Source: an uncultured Rubripirellula sp.
GTDB taxonomy: Bacteria; Planctomycetota; Planctomycetia; Pirellulales; Pirellulaceae
Assembly: GCA_938075415.1 (NCBI GenBank)
Contig: CALJHC010000003.1
Location: 62,001-126,000, forward strand
Length of the DNA: 64,000 nucleotides
Direction of reading: 5' to 3'
Both the position numbers and the translations under genes were made by a program. Below the pieces are notes generated by a model. The model saw only the letters and a list, made by a program, of their open reading frames with translations, searched no databases and had not been told where the DNA came from. Below are positions 44,370 to 53,017 of this stretch, piece after piece. How positions within the stretch are numbered: the stretch's first letter is position 1; each line of letters opens with the position of its first letter.

Positions 44370-47300
44370 ATGGAAGGCTTACGTCGAACTCTCTTGTCAA
44401 CTCAAGTCAAGTTTTTGTTCACCGTTTTCATTTTTCTCCCGGTGCTTGGAAGTTCCGTGCACGCGGAGGAGGCCCAATGGATCTGGAACCACGGGACGGA
44501 TCTCCAAACGCCAATCCCGGAAGGGCAATCCTGCTTTTTCCGCAAACCCATCAACCTGAAAGTTCGTTCAGTCGGGCGAATCGAAATCGCTGCCGATGAT
44601 GAGTACGAACTTTATGTTAACGGCAACCTGATTGGCGAAGGAAAATCGTCTCGGGAATTGCAGCAGTACGACATCTCAGAATTCCTAGAGATCGGTCGGA
44701 ATGTGATTGCGGCGAAAGTCGTTAATACGCACGGTGACACAGCAGCCTTGGCGGCAAGAGTGTCGGTCAAACCGGAAAAGCAGCCCAAGTGGTTCACTTT
44801 CAGCACCGGACCTTCATGGCGAGTGAGCACTCAAGAAAGCTCAATCTGGCAAACGGTACTATTCAATGACCGCCTGTGGGGTACCGCTAGTTCTTTTGGT
44901 GAATTAGGCGACACCGTTCCATGGGACCGCGCGGTGGACGTTGCGGTTGAAACTCAAAGCGAACAACAGGAACGCTTCCAGATTCAAAAGGGTTTTGGAG
45001 TACAACGAGTGCTCGACGACCAAGCAGTTGGATCAATCATCGCCATGACTTTCAATGAATTTGGCCACATCATTGCTTCGCAAGAAAATGGTCCGCTTTT
45101 ATTGATCTCTGACAAGAACGGCGATGGGATTCCTGAGCACGTTTCTGAATACTGTGACCAAATCAAAAATTGCCATGGCATCCTCGCACTCAATGGTGAA
45201 GTTTTCGCTACCGGCGACGGGCCGGAAGGAACCGCGCTGTATCGATTACGGGATGAGGATCGAAACGGAACCCTCGAGCAGCTTGATGCAATGGTCAAGT
45301 TCAAAAAGAGCGGTGGCGAGCATGGGCCTCATGGAATTCGCCTTGGTCCCGACGGCATGATCTACATCGCAGTGGGAAGTCATACCGAAGCGATTGGTGA
45401 GGTGGGAGACGGCGAGACACTACGAATCAGCTACGAGGGCGACCTCCTGCCACGCTACGAGGATCCGGCTGGACATGGCATGGGTATCAAAGCCCCCGGA
45501 GGAACCATCATCCGAACCGACACTTCCGGAAACGTGGTGGAGACGGTCGCCGGCGGTATACGTAACGCCTATGACCTAGCCTTCCATCCAGAGGGTTCGT
45601 TATTCGTTCATGATTCAGATATGGAAGCGGACTTGCAAACTTCATGGTATCGCCCAACTGCATTGTTCGACGTGCCAGAGGGTGGCGAACTTGGATGGCG
45701 AACCGGCTGGTCAAAGTGGCCCGAGTATTACCTTGATCGATTACCAAACTTGCTCGACACCGGACGGGGAAGCCCAACCGGCGCAACCTGCTACGAGCAC
45801 CACACGTTTCCAGCGAGGTATCACCAGTCACTCTTTCTGGCCGACTGGTCAGAGGGACGAATCCTGAACGTGCGACTGAAACCACGGGGTGCAGGCTATG
45901 TCGCCGAAAGTGAAGTATTCCTTCAAGGACAACCCCTCAATGTTTCTGACCTCGAGGTCGGACCCGATGGGGCAATTTACTTCTGCACCGGAGGCCGTGG
46001 AACCTCGGGTGGAATCTATCGTGTGATTTACAAAGGCGACGTTCCCGAACGCATCAGACAACTGGGGACGGGTATTTCCGCCGCCATTCGTCAGCCTCAA
46101 ATCGAAGCGGCTTGGGCGAGACAGGCCGTAGCATCCGTTCGCCAAGAACTTGATGACCGATGGCCGCAATTGGTCGCAGGTGTCGCGTTGAGCGATGACA
46201 ATCCCGCCCACTATCGAACACGGGCGATCGACCTGATGCAGCTCTTTGGCCCAGTTCCAAATGAAAAGCTACTCATGGAGCTGAGCGAAGCTCCCAATGA
46301 ATCGGTGCGTGCCAAGGCCGCTTGGATGATGGGCTTGCACCCTGGTGAGCTGAGCAGGGATCGATTAACCGAACTGCTATCGGACTCAAATCCGCGCGTT
46401 CAACGAGCCGCCTGTGAAGCGATGATGCGAAGTGGACAGGTTCCGGATAACGCGGAAAAAGTTCTACCACTCCTGAAGTCCGAAGACCGAAACCTTGCCT
46501 TCGTTGCGAGGCGTCTGCTTGAACGCATTCCTGCGGATCAATGGCAAGAGATCGTCATGGAGAGTGATGACGCGAGGATTGCAATCCTCGGCATGCTGGC
46601 GCTGATCAATTCTGACTCCAGTGAAGCGACATGCCTTCAAGTCTTGGGTAAATCCAGTCAACTGATGTCAGAATTCATGAGCGATGCCGACTTCCTTGAT
46701 ACCTTGAGGCTTTGCCAACTTGCCCTGCATCGTGGTGAGATCAAACCCGAATTGGCAACGACCCTTCGAGATCAAATTGCCGAGGAGTTCCCCGCCGGTG
46801 ACAACCGAATGAATCATGAACTGATTCGCCTGGCGGCCTATCTCAAAGCTGGCTCCGTTTCCGATCGAGCCTTAACCTATCTGTACAGCGACCATGACGA
46901 AATGGACCGTACCCTGGTCGCCATGTACCTGCAATTCCTCTCCCATGACTGGACAGCGGAACAAAGGTTCAAGCTTTTAAAGTATTACGAGAACGTGAGC
47001 AGCAAGACAACTTCCTCATCGCTTGCCTTGTACGTCCAGAATGTCACGAAGGATTTTACCAAATCACTTTCCAATGACGATGTCCTCGCCATTCTCGAGC
47101 AGGGAAAATCGTGGCGCAACGCTGCCCTGGCGGCTCTCTATAAACTGCCTCGGCCGATCGACGAAACCAACGCAGCCATCCTGCGTGAATTGGATCAGGA
47201 CTTGGTGGAAAACCCCAACCATGGGGAAATCGAGCGCCGACTTCGAACGGGAATCATTGCGTTGTTGGCAACCGCGAGCGACGAAACCTCTGCAACGTAT

Positions 47301-48173
47301 CTTCGTAACCTCTGGCGAACAGAACCTGAACGTCGCCCACTGGTTGCGATGGCCCTGGCTCAAAGCCCGGGTGGTGACAACTGGGACTATCTCGTTCGCA
47401 GCCTCAATGTGCTTGAGGGCCAAACCGCCAGCGAAGTGGTCGAAGCCCTGCTCTCCGTAGCGATCGCTACCGATGACCCGATGGCGTTGCGACAACTGAT
47501 TCTTTTAGGCGTCAGGGCGGAACAGAATGATCAGGAATTTGAGAACGTTGAAGCCCTTCTTGAACACTGGACCGGAATGCAGCGTCCCGAAGATGCCGCC
47601 ACCTCGATGCAACCTTGGCAAAAGTGGTACGCGAAGACCTATCCCGATCGCCCGATCGCCGAACTCCCCAATGAGGAGGAGTCTCGGTGGGACTTCGACC
47701 AACTGGTTGAATACCTCAACAGCGAGGAAGGCAACTATGGTGATCCAAACCAAGGTCGGCTCGTTTTCACCAAGGCCAAATGCATTCAATGTCATCGAGT
47801 TGGCGACGAAGGTGAGTCAGTTGGGCCGACACTTACGGGTATCGTGAAACGATTCTCAAAGCGAGAAATTCTCGAATCCGTTCTATTCCCCTCCCACGTC
47901 ATCAGCGATCAATACGCAAGCAAGAAAGTCCTGACACTCGATGGCCAATCGTTTACCGGTATGCTGACTGAACGAAATGACCAGTCGCTTCAAGTGCGAG
48001 ATTCGAGTAATCAGATCCTGATTATCGAAGAAGCCAATGTGGATCAAATCCTTCCAAGCAGCAGCAGCATCATGCCGAGCAGGCTCTTGGATGATTCATC
48101 ACTGAGAGAAATCAGCGATTTGATGTCCTACCTCGGGGTCGTTCCGAAAATCGAAATCGCCACCCGTCCCTAA
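44370..48173 (+). CDS. 1267-residue PVC-type haem-binding propeller/HEAT protein
   Basis: A very large exported protein. A signal peptide lies at ~12-32 (ends SVHAEE). Residues ~33-165 form a beta-sandwich resembling the N-terminal domain of rhamnosidases (IWNHG, ADDEYELYVNGNLIGEG). A soluble-dehydrogenase-type beta-propeller follows, ~205-565, with the signature RNAYDLAFHPEG, DSDMEADLQTSWYRPT and GRGSPTGA. HEAT-like helical repeats occupy ~570-1110 (e.g. KAAWMMGLHPG, PRVQRAACEAMMRSG). The last domain is a cytochrome-c-like module with C1138-I-Q-C1141-H1142 and GPTLTGIVKRF, ending in a beta domain. Likely secreted oxidation or electron-transfer protein acting on carbohydrate; this is inferred. 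Related to the partial protein at the left window edge. Confidence 0.9.
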   Translation: MEGLRRTLLSTQVKFLFTVFIFLPVLGSSVHAEEAQWIWNHGTDLQTPIPEGQSCFFRKPINLKVRSVGRIEIAADDEYELYVNGNLIGEGKSSRELQQYDISEFLEIGRNVIAAKVVNTHGDTAALAARVSVKPEKQPKWFTFSTGPSWRVSTQESSIWQTVLFNDRLWGTASSFGELGDTVPWDRAVDVAVETQSEQQERFQIQKGFGVQRVLDDQAVGSIIAMTFNEFGHIIASQENGPLLLISDKNGDGIPEHVSEYCDQIKNCHGILALNGEVFATGDGPEGTALYRLRDEDRNGTLEQLDAMVKFKKSGGEHGPHGIRLGPDGMIYIAVGSHTEAIGEVGDGETLRISYEGDLLPRYEDPAGHGMGIKAPGGTIIRTDTSGNVVETVAGGIRNAYDLAFHPEGSLFVHDSDMEADLQTSWYRPTALFDVPEGGELGWRTGWSKWPEYYLDRLPNLLDTGRGSPTGATCYEHHTFPARYHQSLFLADWSEGRILNVRLKPRGAGYVAESEVFLQGQPLNVSDLEVGPDGAIYFCTGGRGTSGGIYRVIYKGDVPERIRQLGTGISAAIRQPQIEAAWARQAVASVRQELDDRWPQLVAGVALSDDNPAHYRTRAIDLMQLFGPVPNEKLLMELSEAPNESVRAKAAWMMGLHPGELSRDRLTELLSDSNPRVQRAACEAMMRSGQVPDNAEKVLPLLKSEDRNLAFVARRLLERIPADQWQEIVMESDDARIAILGMLALINSDSSEATCLQVLGKSSQLMSEFMSDADFLDTLRLCQLALHRGEIKPELATTLRDQIAEEFPAGDNRMNHELIRLAAYLKAGSVSDRALTYLYSDHDEMDRTLVAMYLQFLSHDWTAEQRFKLLKYYENVSSKTTSSSLALYVQNVTKDFTKSLSNDDVLAILEQGKSWRNAALAALYKLPRPIDETNAAILRELDQDLVENPNHGEIERRLRTGIIALLATASDETSATYLRNLWRTEPERRPLVAMALAQSPGGDNWDYLVRSLNVLEGQTASEVVEALLSVAIATDDPMALRQLILLGVRAEQNDQEFENVEALLEHWTGMQRPEDAATSMQPWQKWYAKTYPDRPIAELPNEEESRWDFDQLVEYLNSEEGNYGDPNQGRLVFTKAKCIQCHRVGDEGESVGPTLTGIVKRFSKREILESVLFPSHVISDQYASKKVLTLDGQSFTGMLTERNDQSLQVRDSSNQILIIEEANVDQILPSSSSIMPSRLLDDSSLREISDLMSYLGVVPKIEIATRP

Positions 48174-48420: not shown

Positions 48421-50823
48421 GTGGAACGCCGTCTGCTCACGTTTATCGTCGCCTCGACCGCGTTCTTCATGTTTTACCTGTGGATGCGAATGCTGTTTGT
48501 GCCACCACAGCCACCCGAGGTTGCTGAGAACGTGGCTGCCGAGGTCTTACTAGAAGAAGATCTCGTCGCAAACGATGCAATCACCGAATCCATCGATCAA
48601 GCTGCTGACACACTCGACGAGGCAACCACGTCGGACGAGGATGGCGTTGATGAAGATAATCCGGTTCGTCCAGTTCAACCCGAGTGGATCTCTTTGGGGT
48701 CAATGGCGGCAGAAGATGGCTACCACCTTCTAGTCACCCTGAACTCCCTTGGTGGTGGTATCGAGCGTCTGGAAATGACTGAGCGCAATGAATCAGGTGA
48801 ATTCCGATACCGCCGAGTTGATGTGAGGCACGGGTACCTTGGCTACCTCGCGGCAGCCCCTGCCGCAACAACCGATGGAGTGGTTGTCAACATCGTTGGT
48901 AAAGGTACCCCGGCCAAAGCAGCAGGTATCGAAATTGGTGACGTCATCACCTCAATCGATGGACAGACGATTACCGATCGCCCTCAGATTGATCAAGCCT
49001 TGCTGGATACAAAACCGGGTGACCAAGTTGAGATCTCATTACTTCGCGGGGAAACGGGCCAGTCGCTAAGCATCATCGCGACACTGTCTGAGCATCCCTT
49101 GGACCTTATTCGACTTGCCAAAGATGGCGGTGAAGATCAGATCGTCGGCAACCTGTCTCGCTCGTCATGCCTGATGACACTGAGTCAGGTGAATCGTAAA
49201 AGTATTGAACCCAGCCAGCGGGGCATCAATGGATTAATTGATCCATTTCAACTCAATTGGGACGTCAAGGTCGCAGAGCAAAGCGTTCTTTCCTCCGCAG
49301 AATTATCGCTTGAATTGTCTGCCTCTGAGATGGAGAAAATTGGAGGAAAACCGGTACGGCTTGTCCGAAGCTACGAGTTATCGCCTGCATCTTATGACAT
49401 TAAAATGGTTGTCCAAATTGACAACCTTGCTGAGGAATCGCAGGACCTGGCTTATCGTTTAGAAGGCGCCAACGGAATCACGCTTGAAGGTTGGTGGTAC
49501 AGCAACAAAATCAGTCCTCACTGGCAAGGTGGTGCCGCTGCGAGAGATATCGTCTGCCAAACTGAAGCAGGTGGGCATCGATTGCTGAGTGGTTTTAACC
49601 TTCTCAATCGTGCCAAAAAAGAGAAGAGTGATGCCAACGAGACCATCTTTGCCAGTGACAGCAGTGCCTCCGAACGAAATCTGCGGTATATCGGTGTTGA
49701 TGCCCAATATTTTGCCGTGGCTTACATTCCCTCTGAGGGCAAGAGCGTCTTCAAAACGCTTCGCAGAGCATCCGCTGGCATTACCGCTGATGCCGAAGCA
49801 ATCCCCCGCCATCAAGAACGAGCGGTCAACACGACTTTCTATCTGGATAGCGTCGTTGCGGAGGTGCCCTCGGGTAGCTCACTGAAACAGGAACTACGAA
49901 TGTTCGCGGGACCGAAGCAGCCCGAGATCCTCGCGGAATACGGATTGGGTGACTGCATCTACTACGGTTGGTTTGCAAGATTCGCAAAGATACTCTCCGG
50001 CCTGCTGCACACCCTGGCCAATGTCGGTAACTATGCCGTCGCGATCATCTTGTTGACTGTGATTGTTCGTGGCGGAATGTTCCCGCTAAGTCGCAAAGCC
50101 GCGATCAATGCGCAGAAGATGCAAGAACTCGCTCCAGAGATGAAAAAAATCAATGAGCGTTACAAGGATGACTTGGAGGGCAAAATGCGTGCCCAACGGG
50201 AACTACAACAACGTGTTGGGTTCAACCCACTCGCTGGTTGCCTGCCAATGTTCATCCAGTTTCCGATTTTCATCGGCCTCTACCGGGCCTTATCCGTTGA
50301 TATTGAACTGCGCCAAGCTGCTGTCTCCGAAGCAACGGACTGGGCGTCCAACCTCGCCGCTCCAGACATGCTTTTGTTCTGGGGTGACTGGCTTTGGGAC
50401 TATCTCTCAGGCCGTGGAACCGGGTGGCTCGGACCCTATTTCAATATTTTGCCCGTCCTGGTTGTCGTTCTTTTCTTGACGCAACAAAAGATGTTCATGC
50501 CACCCGCAACGGATGACCAGACGGCAATGACCCAGAAGATGATGAACATCATGACTCTGATGATGGGTTTGTTCTTCTTCCGTGTTCCCGCTGGTCTCTG
50601 TGTCTACTTCATCACCAGTAGCCTTTGGGGAATTTGTGAGCGAATTTTTGTCAAGAAAACTCTTCCCCCCACCAAGCATTTTGACTCGACGGCCTTGGCA
50701 GGGTCAGCAGCTAAGCCGGAAAAATCACAAACGTTGGTCGATCGATTGAAAAGTCAGGTTGCAAAGCCTGAAATGCCCATAGCGCGTCCCAATCAACGAA
50801 AGCGACCACCTAAGAAAAAGTAA
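48421..50823 (+). CDS. yidC: YidC/Oxa1 membrane insertase with embedded PDZ domain
   Basis: A membrane-protein insertase of 800 residues, longer than the ~550 of E. coli YidC. The first helix is at 5-25. The periplasmic P1 domain (about 85-500) contains a PDZ-like insertion at ~138-222, recognisable as [21 protein letters not shown] plus LLRGE. The conserved insertase core begins near 510, with the catalytic-groove Arg in [15 protein letters not shown], a cytosolic coiled segment and helices up to ~760. The C-terminal tail is Lys/Arg-rich (RKRPPKKK), typical of forms that contact ribosomes. The start codon is GTG. No rnpA or rpmH neighbour is present. The acidic linker at 30-85 is also unusual. 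Confidence 0.93.
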
Positions 50824-51212: not shown

Positions 51213-51638
51213 CTAAATGTAGAACATTGACTCTTCACCGCCGCGACATCTTTGAGCAAGCTCGCTAAGTCGAACGTTCGCCAGAACGGCACGCGACGCA
51301 TCGGTGGCTTCATCCCACAATTGCTGCAGCATCACCTCCGCAGGACTCAACTTTCCCGTCTTGCGATGGCTCGCTTCCTGGCAACCCATGACCTCAGCGA
51401 TGTCAAGAAGACGGATCTGATCGGGATCCACCAATAATCGATAACCACCTTGGTTTCCCCTGACACTCTGCACCCAGCCGGCGCTCCGAAGGCTTCGGAA
51501 AATCTGCACCAGAAACGGACCTGGAACTCCATGTCGATCCGAGATTTCGCGAAGTGCGACCGGTGAATCCTCAGACTGACGCGCTGCCAGCTCCAGCATC
51601 GCTAAACAGGCGTAGTGAACTCTCGCGGAGATCAGCAT
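51213..51638 (-). CDS. Rrf2-family transcriptional regulator
   Basis: A 141-residue Rrf2-type repressor. The winged helix spans ~1-75 with the typical start MLISARVHYACLAMLELA, the recognition helix VPGPFLVQIFRSLRSAGWV and the wing SVRGNQGGYRLL. Cys occur at 11, 86 and 131 only, so the three closely spaced Cys used by IscR/NsrR to bind an iron-sulfur cluster are missing. This resembles the cysteine-metabolism regulators CymR/CysR, which fits the adjacent APS reductase gene 22 nt upstream on the same strand. GAGGGA lies just before the ATG. It probably controls the cysH-type promoter (inference). Confidence 0.88.
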   Translation of the reverse strand: MLISARVHYACLAMLELAARQSEDSPVALREISDRHGVPGPFLVQIFRSLRSAGWVQSVRGNQGGYRLLVDPDQIRLLDIAEVMGCQEASHRKTGKLSPAEVMLQQLWDEATDASRAVLANVRLSELAQRCRGGEESMFYI

Positions 51639-51660: not shown

Positions 51661-52500
51661 TCACGATGAATGCAGACCGCATTCTGTCTTCTTAAAGGAA
51701 CTCCAACGACCAGCACGTTCATCTTCACCCGGAAGCACAGCCCGCGTGCATGGCTTGCAACCCACACTCGGAAAACCTTGGTCGTGCAACGGGTTGTAAG
51801 GAATGTCATTGTCGGTAATCAGTGACCAAACCTCTTTCTTCGTCCAGTTTGCCAGCGGGCTTACCTTAATCAGCTGAAACTTTCGATCCCAACCGACAAT
51901 GGGGGCCTTGGCTCGGTCAGAGCTTTGATCACGCCGAATTGCGCTGGCCCAAGCATGTTGTCCCCGAGCCGCCTCATGTAAAAGACTGAGTTTGCGATCA
52001 AAACAACAGCGATTGGGATCACTGGCGTAAACCGGTCCGCCGTTGGCTTGCTCGTATTCATCAACACTCATCAACGGCTTCTTCAGCTCCACAGCAATCC
52101 CGTATCGAGTTTTCACACGCTCCCTCAATTCAAGTGTTTCATCAAATTGATAGCCCGTGTCCAAATTAAAAACTGGAGTTTCCGGAGCAATTTCTGAAAG
52201 CATGTGGATGATCGTCATCCCTTCCGGACCAAACGCGGTGGCCATCGTGAATCGGGGGGCAAAGCGGTCAACCGCCCACTGGAGAATCTGCTGAGGACTC
52301 GCTGACTCCAATCGCTCACTCACTTCTTGGATCTCTTCAAGGAACGCATCGGTCGGTTCCAAAGGAGGGTCCGCAGCCAGCGCACCTCGAGGCTCACCTG
52401 AATCAATCGAGACCAATTGCAGCGGCGAAGAATTTTTTTCGACGGATGACTCACCGTCATCAGCTTCAGATTTATTCATATTCGGCTGAAAAGCATTCAT
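51661..52500 (-). CDS. cysH: adenylyl-sulfate (APS) reductase, thioredoxin-dependent
   Basis: A 279-residue assimilatory reductase that converts APS (or PAPS) to sulfite. The nucleotide-binding ATAFGPEGM loop and FNLDTGYQFDET are typical. Cys165-Cys166 (NRCCFDRK) and Cys248-x-x-Cys251 (GCKPC) are the four ligands of a [4Fe-4S] cluster, the hallmark of APS-preferring enzymes. The catalytic Cys274 is in ECGLH at the C-terminus. I chose the ATG at 52500 with AGGA directly upstream; a GTG at 52539 would overlap the putative promoter, and the first ~45 residues are poorly conserved anyway. The Rrf2 gene follows 22 nt downstream, so the two form a sulfur-assimilation operon. Confidence 0.93.
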   Translation of the reverse strand: MNAFQPNMNKSEADDGESSVEKNSSPLQLVSIDSGEPRGALAADPPLEPTDAFLEEIQEVSERLESASPQQILQWAVDRFAPRFTMATAFGPEGMTIIHMLSEIAPETPVFNLDTGYQFDETLELRERVKTRYGIAVELKKPLMSVDEYEQANGGPVYASDPNRCCFDRKLSLLHEAARGQHAWASAIRRDQSSDRAKAPIVGWDRKFQLIKVSPLANWTKKEVWSLITDNDIPYNPLHDQGFPSVGCKPCTRAVLPGEDERAGRWSSFKKTECGLHSS

Positions 52501-53017
52501 TCCTGATCGCCCCAGTTTGCGGGCGAAACGCCCATACACTACTAACTTGATCTAATTAGTCAAGTATGTCATCGGGTCGCAGGGGTTCAGAACTCAAATG
52601 GTTTTGGGCTGAAGGGAAAAAACAAGCGAACGCAATTTGGATTTCAAAGCCTAAAACGTTGCAAAAACAGCCAATCAGCAGCCACACCGCAGGTTCATAA
52701 CGCAATGATGTCACGGACAAAACGCCAGTGGAAAGCTAGCCAAAATAGTGCCAGCGGCCAGATATCGGGCCCCACCAAAAGACAACAACTCGGGGGGGTG
52801 ATTCATTTTCACACACCTCCGATCAGTCATTCTCATTCGAGAAATCTTCGGATAGAAAACGAATTTTCTGCAGTGCGTGCCGGAACGCGGTTCGCGGCAG
52901 GTGCGTTAAGCAAGTAAAATTGAGTCCTCTGCAAGCTAGACTTCAGCAAAGTCGCCTGAATTTCGATGAAACGAATAAGAGACCGGTCACACCCTTTGCT
53001 CCACAAGGCAGTCAGCC
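52501..53017. other. divergent promoter region
   Basis: The 517 nt between the divergent cysH-type and TPR/HEAT-type genes hold a putative promoter/operator for cysH (52535-52564) and no credible ORF. Confidence 0.45.
52535..52564 (-). promoter_or_regulatory. putative cysH promoter with overlapping palindromic operator
   Basis: On the minus strand TTGACT (52558-52563) is followed after 17 bases by AGTGTA, a fair -35 and poor -10. The -35 lies within an imperfect palindrome, CTTGA...TCAAG (52546-52564), whose centre is the perfect 8-bp palindrome CTAATTAG. Such an arrangement fits repression by the Rrf2 regulator encoded in the same operon. Inferred from position and symmetry. Confidence 0.45.

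Follow-up and report, generated by a model that had tools for sequence, protein, structure and literature searches.

The window analysed here is a stretch of 64,000 nt of DNA from an uncultured Rubripirellula sp. (assembly GCA_938075415.1, contig CALJHC010000003.1, positions 62,001 – 126,000 of the forward strand), and all positions given below are those of the window. Judged by its sequence, the product of the ORF at nt 48421 – 50823 is the housekeeping YidC insertase of a planctomycete of the order Pirellulales, and insertion is its predicted activity. The features of the gene and its product are collected in Table 1.

The conserved core matches the 60KD_IMP model of Pfam (residues 538 – 746, E 1.2e-46) and the YidC model TIGR03592 of NCBIfam (E 4.8e-54), and in a search of PDB sequences it retrieved the YidC proteins of E. 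coli and B. halodurans. The structure of the latter (3wo6) superimposes on the core at 2.0 Å over 190 residues. Residue R550 is invariant among the alignment rows (14/14 and 51/51), and in a profile alignment it lies opposite the arginine of E. coli FIVRGIMYPL; we take this position to be that of the YidC groove arginine, the role of which comes from the literature. The window genome has a single YidC match, and four further matches to the protein cover the PDZ domain alone.

Between TM1 and TM2 lies a periplasmic beta-sandwich (P1), as in YidC of the Gram-negative type. Pfam recognises it in part only, with YidC_periplas matching residues 404 – 525 (E 1.4e-12; profile positions 173 – 280 of 283), and the VIA-align matches of the predicted structure to E. 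coli P1 structures start at residue 85. The N-terminal helix presumably spans the membrane, as follows from YidC topology.

Table 1. Features of the yidC gene and of its product, in window positions
Feature	Positions	Strand	Basis
yidC ORF	48421..50823	+	GTG start, 800 aa; Pfam 60KD_IMP, NCBIfam TIGR03592
N-terminal transmembrane helix, residues 2-26	48424..48498	+	helix 2-26 in AlphaFold2 model
Acidic linker, residues 27-84, low confidence, probably flexible	48499..48672	+	pLDDT <50 over 31-76
P1 domain, first part, residues 86-136	48676..48828	+	model strands 89-93, 103-108, 113-119
Inserted HtrA-type PDZ domain, residues ~137-222	48829..49086	+	Pfam, AlphaFold2, fold searches, profile alignment
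GYLG carboxylate-binding loop, residues 138-141	48832..48843	+	column conservation; form of the motif as in the available text of PMC11642142
PDZ helix alpha-B, residues 188-195	48982..49005	+	helix 188-194 in AlphaFold2 model
P1 beta-sandwich remainder, residues 226-500	49096..49920	+	YidC_periplas 404-525; 3bs6 Z 21.0, 3blc Z 21.1
Conserved five-helix insertase core, residues 538-746	50032..50658	+	Pfam 60KD_IMP; 3wo6 Z 18.5
R550	50068..50070	+	aligned with YidC groove arginine
Basic C-terminal tail, residues 747-800	50659..50820	+	sequence

A PDZ domain inserted in P1

The preliminary description of this ORF had placed a PDZ-like segment within P1, at about residues 138 – 222. This was accurate, the profile alignment described below giving limits of about 137 – 222. 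The PDZ_2 model matches residues 148 – 218 (E 8.4e-16), two further Pfam models, PDZ_6 (E 1.6e-10) and PDZ (E 6.4e-8), agree on the same segment, and the Do/HtrA protease model TIGR02037 of NCBIfam matches there as well (E 1.3e-11). In the search of PDB sequences, residues 146 – 240 matched HtrA, DegP, DegQ and DegS, and a few eukaryotic PDZ proteins ranked lower. Neither Trypsin nor Trypsin_2 of Pfam matched the window YidC up to E 1.

The full-length AlphaFold2 model (51 rows) has a mean pLDDT of 86.0 and a pTM of 0.79, and the ten-residue blocks between residues 131 and 230 reach pLDDT values of 90 – 97; modelled alone (99 residues), the PDZ domain has a mean pLDDT of 92.1. With the full-length model, Foldseek placed E. 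coli YidC first (6al2, 3wvf) and HtrA/DegS lower. VIA-align superimposed it on E. coli YidC 3wvf with Z 22.1 (431 residues at 4.2 Å, model residues 86 – 741), the beta-sandwich of P1 and the five-helix core being common to both, and on 6al2 with Z 21.9; structures of E. coli P1 alone also match (3bs6, 248 residues at 3.0 Å, and 3blc; Z scores in Table 1). Residues 136 – 225 align with the HtrA protein Rv0983 (1y8t; Z 15.5, 1.3 Å over 88 residues), and the PDZ domain with DegS bound to a YQF peptide (3gdv; Z 14.9, 1.5 Å over 90). For the isolated domain, the best 50 matches listed by VIA-align and by Foldseek are mainly HtrA/Deg-type proteases, with CtpA/CtpB in a few of those of Foldseek.

The occurrence of a PDZ domain in this YidC is far beyond chance, and that the protein is built as a YidC with a PDZ domain inserted in P1 is, in our view, virtually certain. 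Because the structure comparisons match both the E. coli P1 and the HtrA PDZ, P1 itself is ordinary and present, and the PDZ is an addition to it; the predicted structure has a PDZ fold within P1, not an ordinary P1 lacking one. The inserted domain shares its fold and its X-hydrophobic-Gly loop with the PDZ domains of the HtrA family (DegS, DegP/DegQ, Rv0983, AlgW). Unlike the members of that family, the window YidC has no protease domain, and its PDZ is set inside a membrane insertase. Some of the VIA-align and Foldseek matches of P1 are galactose mutarotases, a likeness of the YidC beta-sandwich that has no bearing on the PDZ.

The site of insertion was mapped by local profile-profile alignment of 47 YidCs of the order (Pirellulales) against 25 from the same class. 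Relative to the PDZ-less planctomycete proteins there is a single contiguous gap at window residues ~137 – 222, and both flanks align. The insertion follows the opening strand pair of P1 and precedes the segment PLDLI. Its counterpart in E. coli is the loop PKELNSTQ, at about residues 89 – 95, a place reached via the PDZ-less planctomycete profile, since the PDZ-bearing profile aligned with E. coli only from ~313 (hhalign). The PDZ is a clean insertion in a P1 loop, with all of the P1 strands kept. Its absence from the E. coli fold had also been proposed in the preliminary description, and both the fold search and the alignment bear this out, with only that short loop present in E. coli.

Distribution, conservation and probable origin of the domain

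The survey of relatives covered the Planctomycetota. HMMs for the PDZ and for the core were built from one YidC alignment and run on the ORFs of fetched loci, and identical core segments were removed. All 138 distinct full-length YidCs examined from the Pirellulales carry the PDZ (E 3.3e-33 to 4.5e-11). Within these 138 are two overlapping sets, namely the proteins for which the order is stated in the search output (89/89 with PDZ) and those of the named loci (72/72). The named loci were put in the Pirellulales by name and similarity, several records having only a phylum- or family-level name; Rubripirellula and Blastopirellula belong to this order (NCBI taxonomy). Outside the order the HMM search found the PDZ in none of 86 distinct YidCs, 26 from the same class and 60 from other classes, one of the 86 (L218) being truncated and too short to tell. 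These YidCs, from Planctomycetales and other planctomycetes, otherwise share TM1, P1, core and basic tail with the window protein. A check with Pfam agrees (PDZ in 6/6 proteins of the order and in 0/4 outsiders). Comparison with other Planctomycetes, which the preliminary description had suggested, therefore sets the Pirellulales apart from all others examined, and within the planctomycetes sampled the PDZ in YidC is clearly a shared derived character of that order.

A YidC-like match was present in 30/30 relatives, in 364 of 392 genomes of the phylum and in 286 of 296 genomes of the order, the other ten of the order having none at the cut-off. For the phylum, the loci analysed comprised the top 30, another 40 located by their coordinates and 30 selected ones; for the order, they were the best 30 and 30 chosen by hand. 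Both the named loci and those ranked highest were picked by likeness to the query, which biases the sample. This is countered by the 30 genomes of the order chosen mostly for weak scores or for matches missing the PDZ: every full-length YidC among these 30 keeps the domain, and no loss inside the order was found. Seven more distinct YidCs of the order, all partial, were set aside and are not among the 138. Four of them lack the PDZ, three beginning at a contig end (L096, L100, L105) and one with an ORF interrupted upstream of the core (L102), and three have all or part of it (L097, L164, L175). A YidC fragment with no core match (L198, in G558) was not counted.

Among the PDZ-bearing proteins is YidC of Rhodopirellula baltica (strain BR-MGV, L084; PDZ_2 at residues 145 – 219, E 1.8e-9), which is from another species and ~54% identical to the window protein. 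Seitl et al. 2014 are said to have described ribosome binding by the C-terminal tail of R. baltica YidC. In one family of the order, f10, three proteins (L170, L171, L174) have two PDZ stretches each, as found both by our own HMM and by Pfam. A fourth (L034) has a similar extra segment, which neither recognised as another PDZ. In this family the additional stretch lies at about residues 270 – 273 of the window protein, a different P1 site from that of the first PDZ, and its sequence lacks GYLG.

The carboxylate-binding loop is nearly invariant among the 138 PDZs of the order. Counting the sequences that have the column, G138 is found in 135/136, Y139 in 133/136 and G141 in 136/137, and L140 in 110/136, the rest being mostly I, M, F or V. 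The loop form X-hydrophobic-Gly-hydrophobic occurs in the window YidC as Y-L-G-Y. Outside the loop, D174 (137/138) and R209 (134/134) are similarly constant, and position 194, in helix alpha-B, is L, M, I or V in 133/138; from HtrA structures this helix is presumably the far wall of the peptide groove. Two positions beside the loop are less strict. Of the 118 sequences with a residue at 136, a position that differs by one from the textbook spacing, 78 have R or K there, and residue 142, which follows LG, is hydrophobic only partly (among 137 sequences, Y in 71, H in 23 and Q in 18).

For the PDZ, dN/dS lies between 0 and 0.29 (25 of the 27 pairs computed, related proteins); in most pairs it is higher than for the remainder of P1, and in nearly all it is higher than for the core. 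With a near-invariant GYLG and a low dN/dS, the PDZ is therefore retained for a function. It also has the top score (63.1 bits) of the 24 PDZ_2 matches in the window genome, 21 of which are above the curated cut-off. The idea of a degenerate PDZ was rejected on the loop conservation, the dN/dS and this score. The PDZ is an elaboration of YidC conserved throughout the order, more widespread than the preliminary description knew, and its proposed function is a well-founded inference.

Ten of the other 23 PDZ_2 sites, chosen by score, were compared with the YidC domain, and its nearest relatives among them are in trypsin-like HtrA-type proteins. As these are the nearest of the PDZs compared, an HtrA donor is likely on sequence grounds. 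A PDZ of this type would have been inserted once, in an ancestor of the Pirellulales, into the P1 loop. Six of the seven PDZ_2 site proteins scanned in the window genome are trypsin-like and HtrA-type; the seventh (L361) has a PDZ and no Pfam protease domain.

Possible ligands and roles

What the domain may do can be approached from its position. The PDZ would look into the periplasm where proteins leave YidC and the SecYEG-SecDF-YidC holotranslocon, and its groove may weakly bind hydrophobic C-termini that lie exposed, or extended beta-strands. The clients could be proteins that have just undergone translocation or insertion, or else a chaperone or protease to which these pass, and they would be kept beside P1 until folding or hand-over, much as by the PDZs of HtrA proteases, minus a protease domain of its own. 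We give about an even chance to this reading, in which the PDZ serves the insertase or holotranslocon as a periplasmic receptor that takes C-termini or extended peptides. It is favoured by the HtrA-type fold, the insertion that spares the P1 strands, the retention in 138/138 proteins, the near-invariant loop, the low dN/dS and the top PDZ_2 score, and by three reports, each as given in the available text of the source: P1 of E. coli contacts emerging chains and SecF (PMC7618853), SurA sits beside SecDF and possibly beside the periplasmic domains of YidC (PMC9987972), and the PDZ domains of HtrA bind peptides via the same X-hydrophobic-Gly loop (PMC11642142). On the other side, P1 of E. coli is described as largely dispensable (available text of PMC7618853), dN/dS is higher in the PDZ than elsewhere in P1 in most pairs and than in the core in nearly all, positions 136 and 142 are only partly conserved, and SecG, BamA and Band_7 proteins give no support. 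Binding of C-termini is nonetheless plausible, and is predicted from the HtrA-type fold, the near-invariant loop and purifying selection. According to the preliminary description, the domain could let YidC bind client or quality-control proteins by their C-termini; an embedded PDZ foreign to the E. coli fold stands, such binding is plausible, and three candidate partners found no support.

SecG and BamA were compared inside and outside the order. The C-terminus of SecG, which we take to be periplasmic, was rejected as a general ligand: in 15 genomes of the order and 14 of other orders, neither group has a shared hydrophobic C-terminus. The SecG proteins of these 29 genomes (L269 – L297) have, in both orders, a long, low-complexity and often acidic C-terminal extension, the last residue of which is mostly charged, polar or a proline. 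HflK/HflC (Band_7) were rejected as a general ligand on account of variable copy number, a single Band_7 protein being found in G196, a member of the order assembled as a single contig and 99% complete. BamA (Omp85), taken as an example of outer-membrane proteins, has C-terminal ends that do not differ between the two groups, and it gave no support. An arginine directly after the beta-signal ends 26 of the 29 Omp85 proteins (L329 – L357; 13/15 in the order, 13/14 outside), in place of the classical aromatic C-terminus.

A narrower role is also possible, though we consider it rather unlikely: the PDZ may dock one dedicated partner, such as SecDF, a PPIase, an HtrA protease or a protein of the FtsH-HflKC type, in an order-specific translocon, instead of serving many clients. 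The strict retention of the domain in all full-length YidCs examined from the order and the strong conservation of its loop fit a fixed partner, and contacts of YidC with SecDF, SurA and FtsH are known in E. coli (available text of PMC7618853 and PMC9987972). Against such a partner, no gene is conserved beside yidC, the SecG tails show no motif, and the single Band_7 protein of G196 means that an HflK-HflC pair is not general.

Should the domain bind no free C-terminus at all, it could be a structural spacer, or a surface turned toward P1, lipid or a second YidC copy. Its faster evolution relative to P1, the partial conservation of the basic residue at the loop and the second PDZ-like segment of f10 without GYLG all agree with this, but a spacer has no need of a near-invariant GYLG loop, and we hold the proposal to be improbable. 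That the PDZ is a neutral, passively inherited insertion is very improbable, for although inheritance alone could give the observed distribution of a domain that dates back to the base of one lineage, a dN/dS well below 1, the lack of any loss in 138/138 proteins and the best PDZ_2 score of the genome count against it.

Returning to the reading as a periplasmic receptor, a more far-reaching form of it can be put forward on analogy with DegS, and we regard this form as speculative and unlikely. Much as DegS does with unfolded outer-membrane proteins, the PDZ would read the C-termini, or strands left exposed, of proteins just translocated or inserted, and so gate their release, their hand-over to periplasmic chaperones or an envelope-stress response. 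If true, such a checking insertase would fuse insertion and periplasmic quality control in one essential protein, to which one family adds a second PDZ. The connection between insertion and quality control for YidC and FtsH is called poorly understood in the available text of PMC7618853. YidC is an ancient insertase, the P1 domain of which is still without a clear role, and the grafting of a PDZ, a peptide-binding module that is well understood, onto P1 at a precise site throughout an order, with a second site in one family, is in effect a natural experiment. A PDZ module of the kind found in quality-control proteases suggests that YidC may grip or check proteins beyond the membrane, and its ligand would reveal what passes or docks at P1, linking membrane insertion to envelope quality control.

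No earlier mention of a PDZ in YidC was found in the open-licence literature searched; one may exist in other papers or as an architecture record in a database. In its available main text, PMC6411480, which surveyed PDZ domains across 1,474 microbial genomes and left 7% of the proteins unclassified, does not use the words YidC, insertase, Oxa1 or 60KD. The word PDZ is likewise absent from the available text of those papers citing the work on the R. baltica YidC tail that were examined and from the Tuwongella proteome paper, and PMC10490939 has it in a reference only.

Clustering of the ORFs around yidC gave no conserved operon partner in most of the 80 named loci. The commonest neighbour cluster, found upstream in 18/80, is homologous to window nt 44370 – 48173, and an MnmE-like gene lies downstream in 10/80. 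In the window, the gene at nt 44370 – 48173 immediately precedes yidC in the same orientation and encodes a large protein with CIQCH, by eye an apparent haem-binding motif, near its C-terminus. Downstream of yidC are a Rrf2-like regulator and a phosphoadenylylsulfate-reductase-like gene (nt 51213 – 51638 and nt 51661 – 52539, minus strand; both named by eye), and the corresponding clusters are each found downstream in 12/80 of the named loci.
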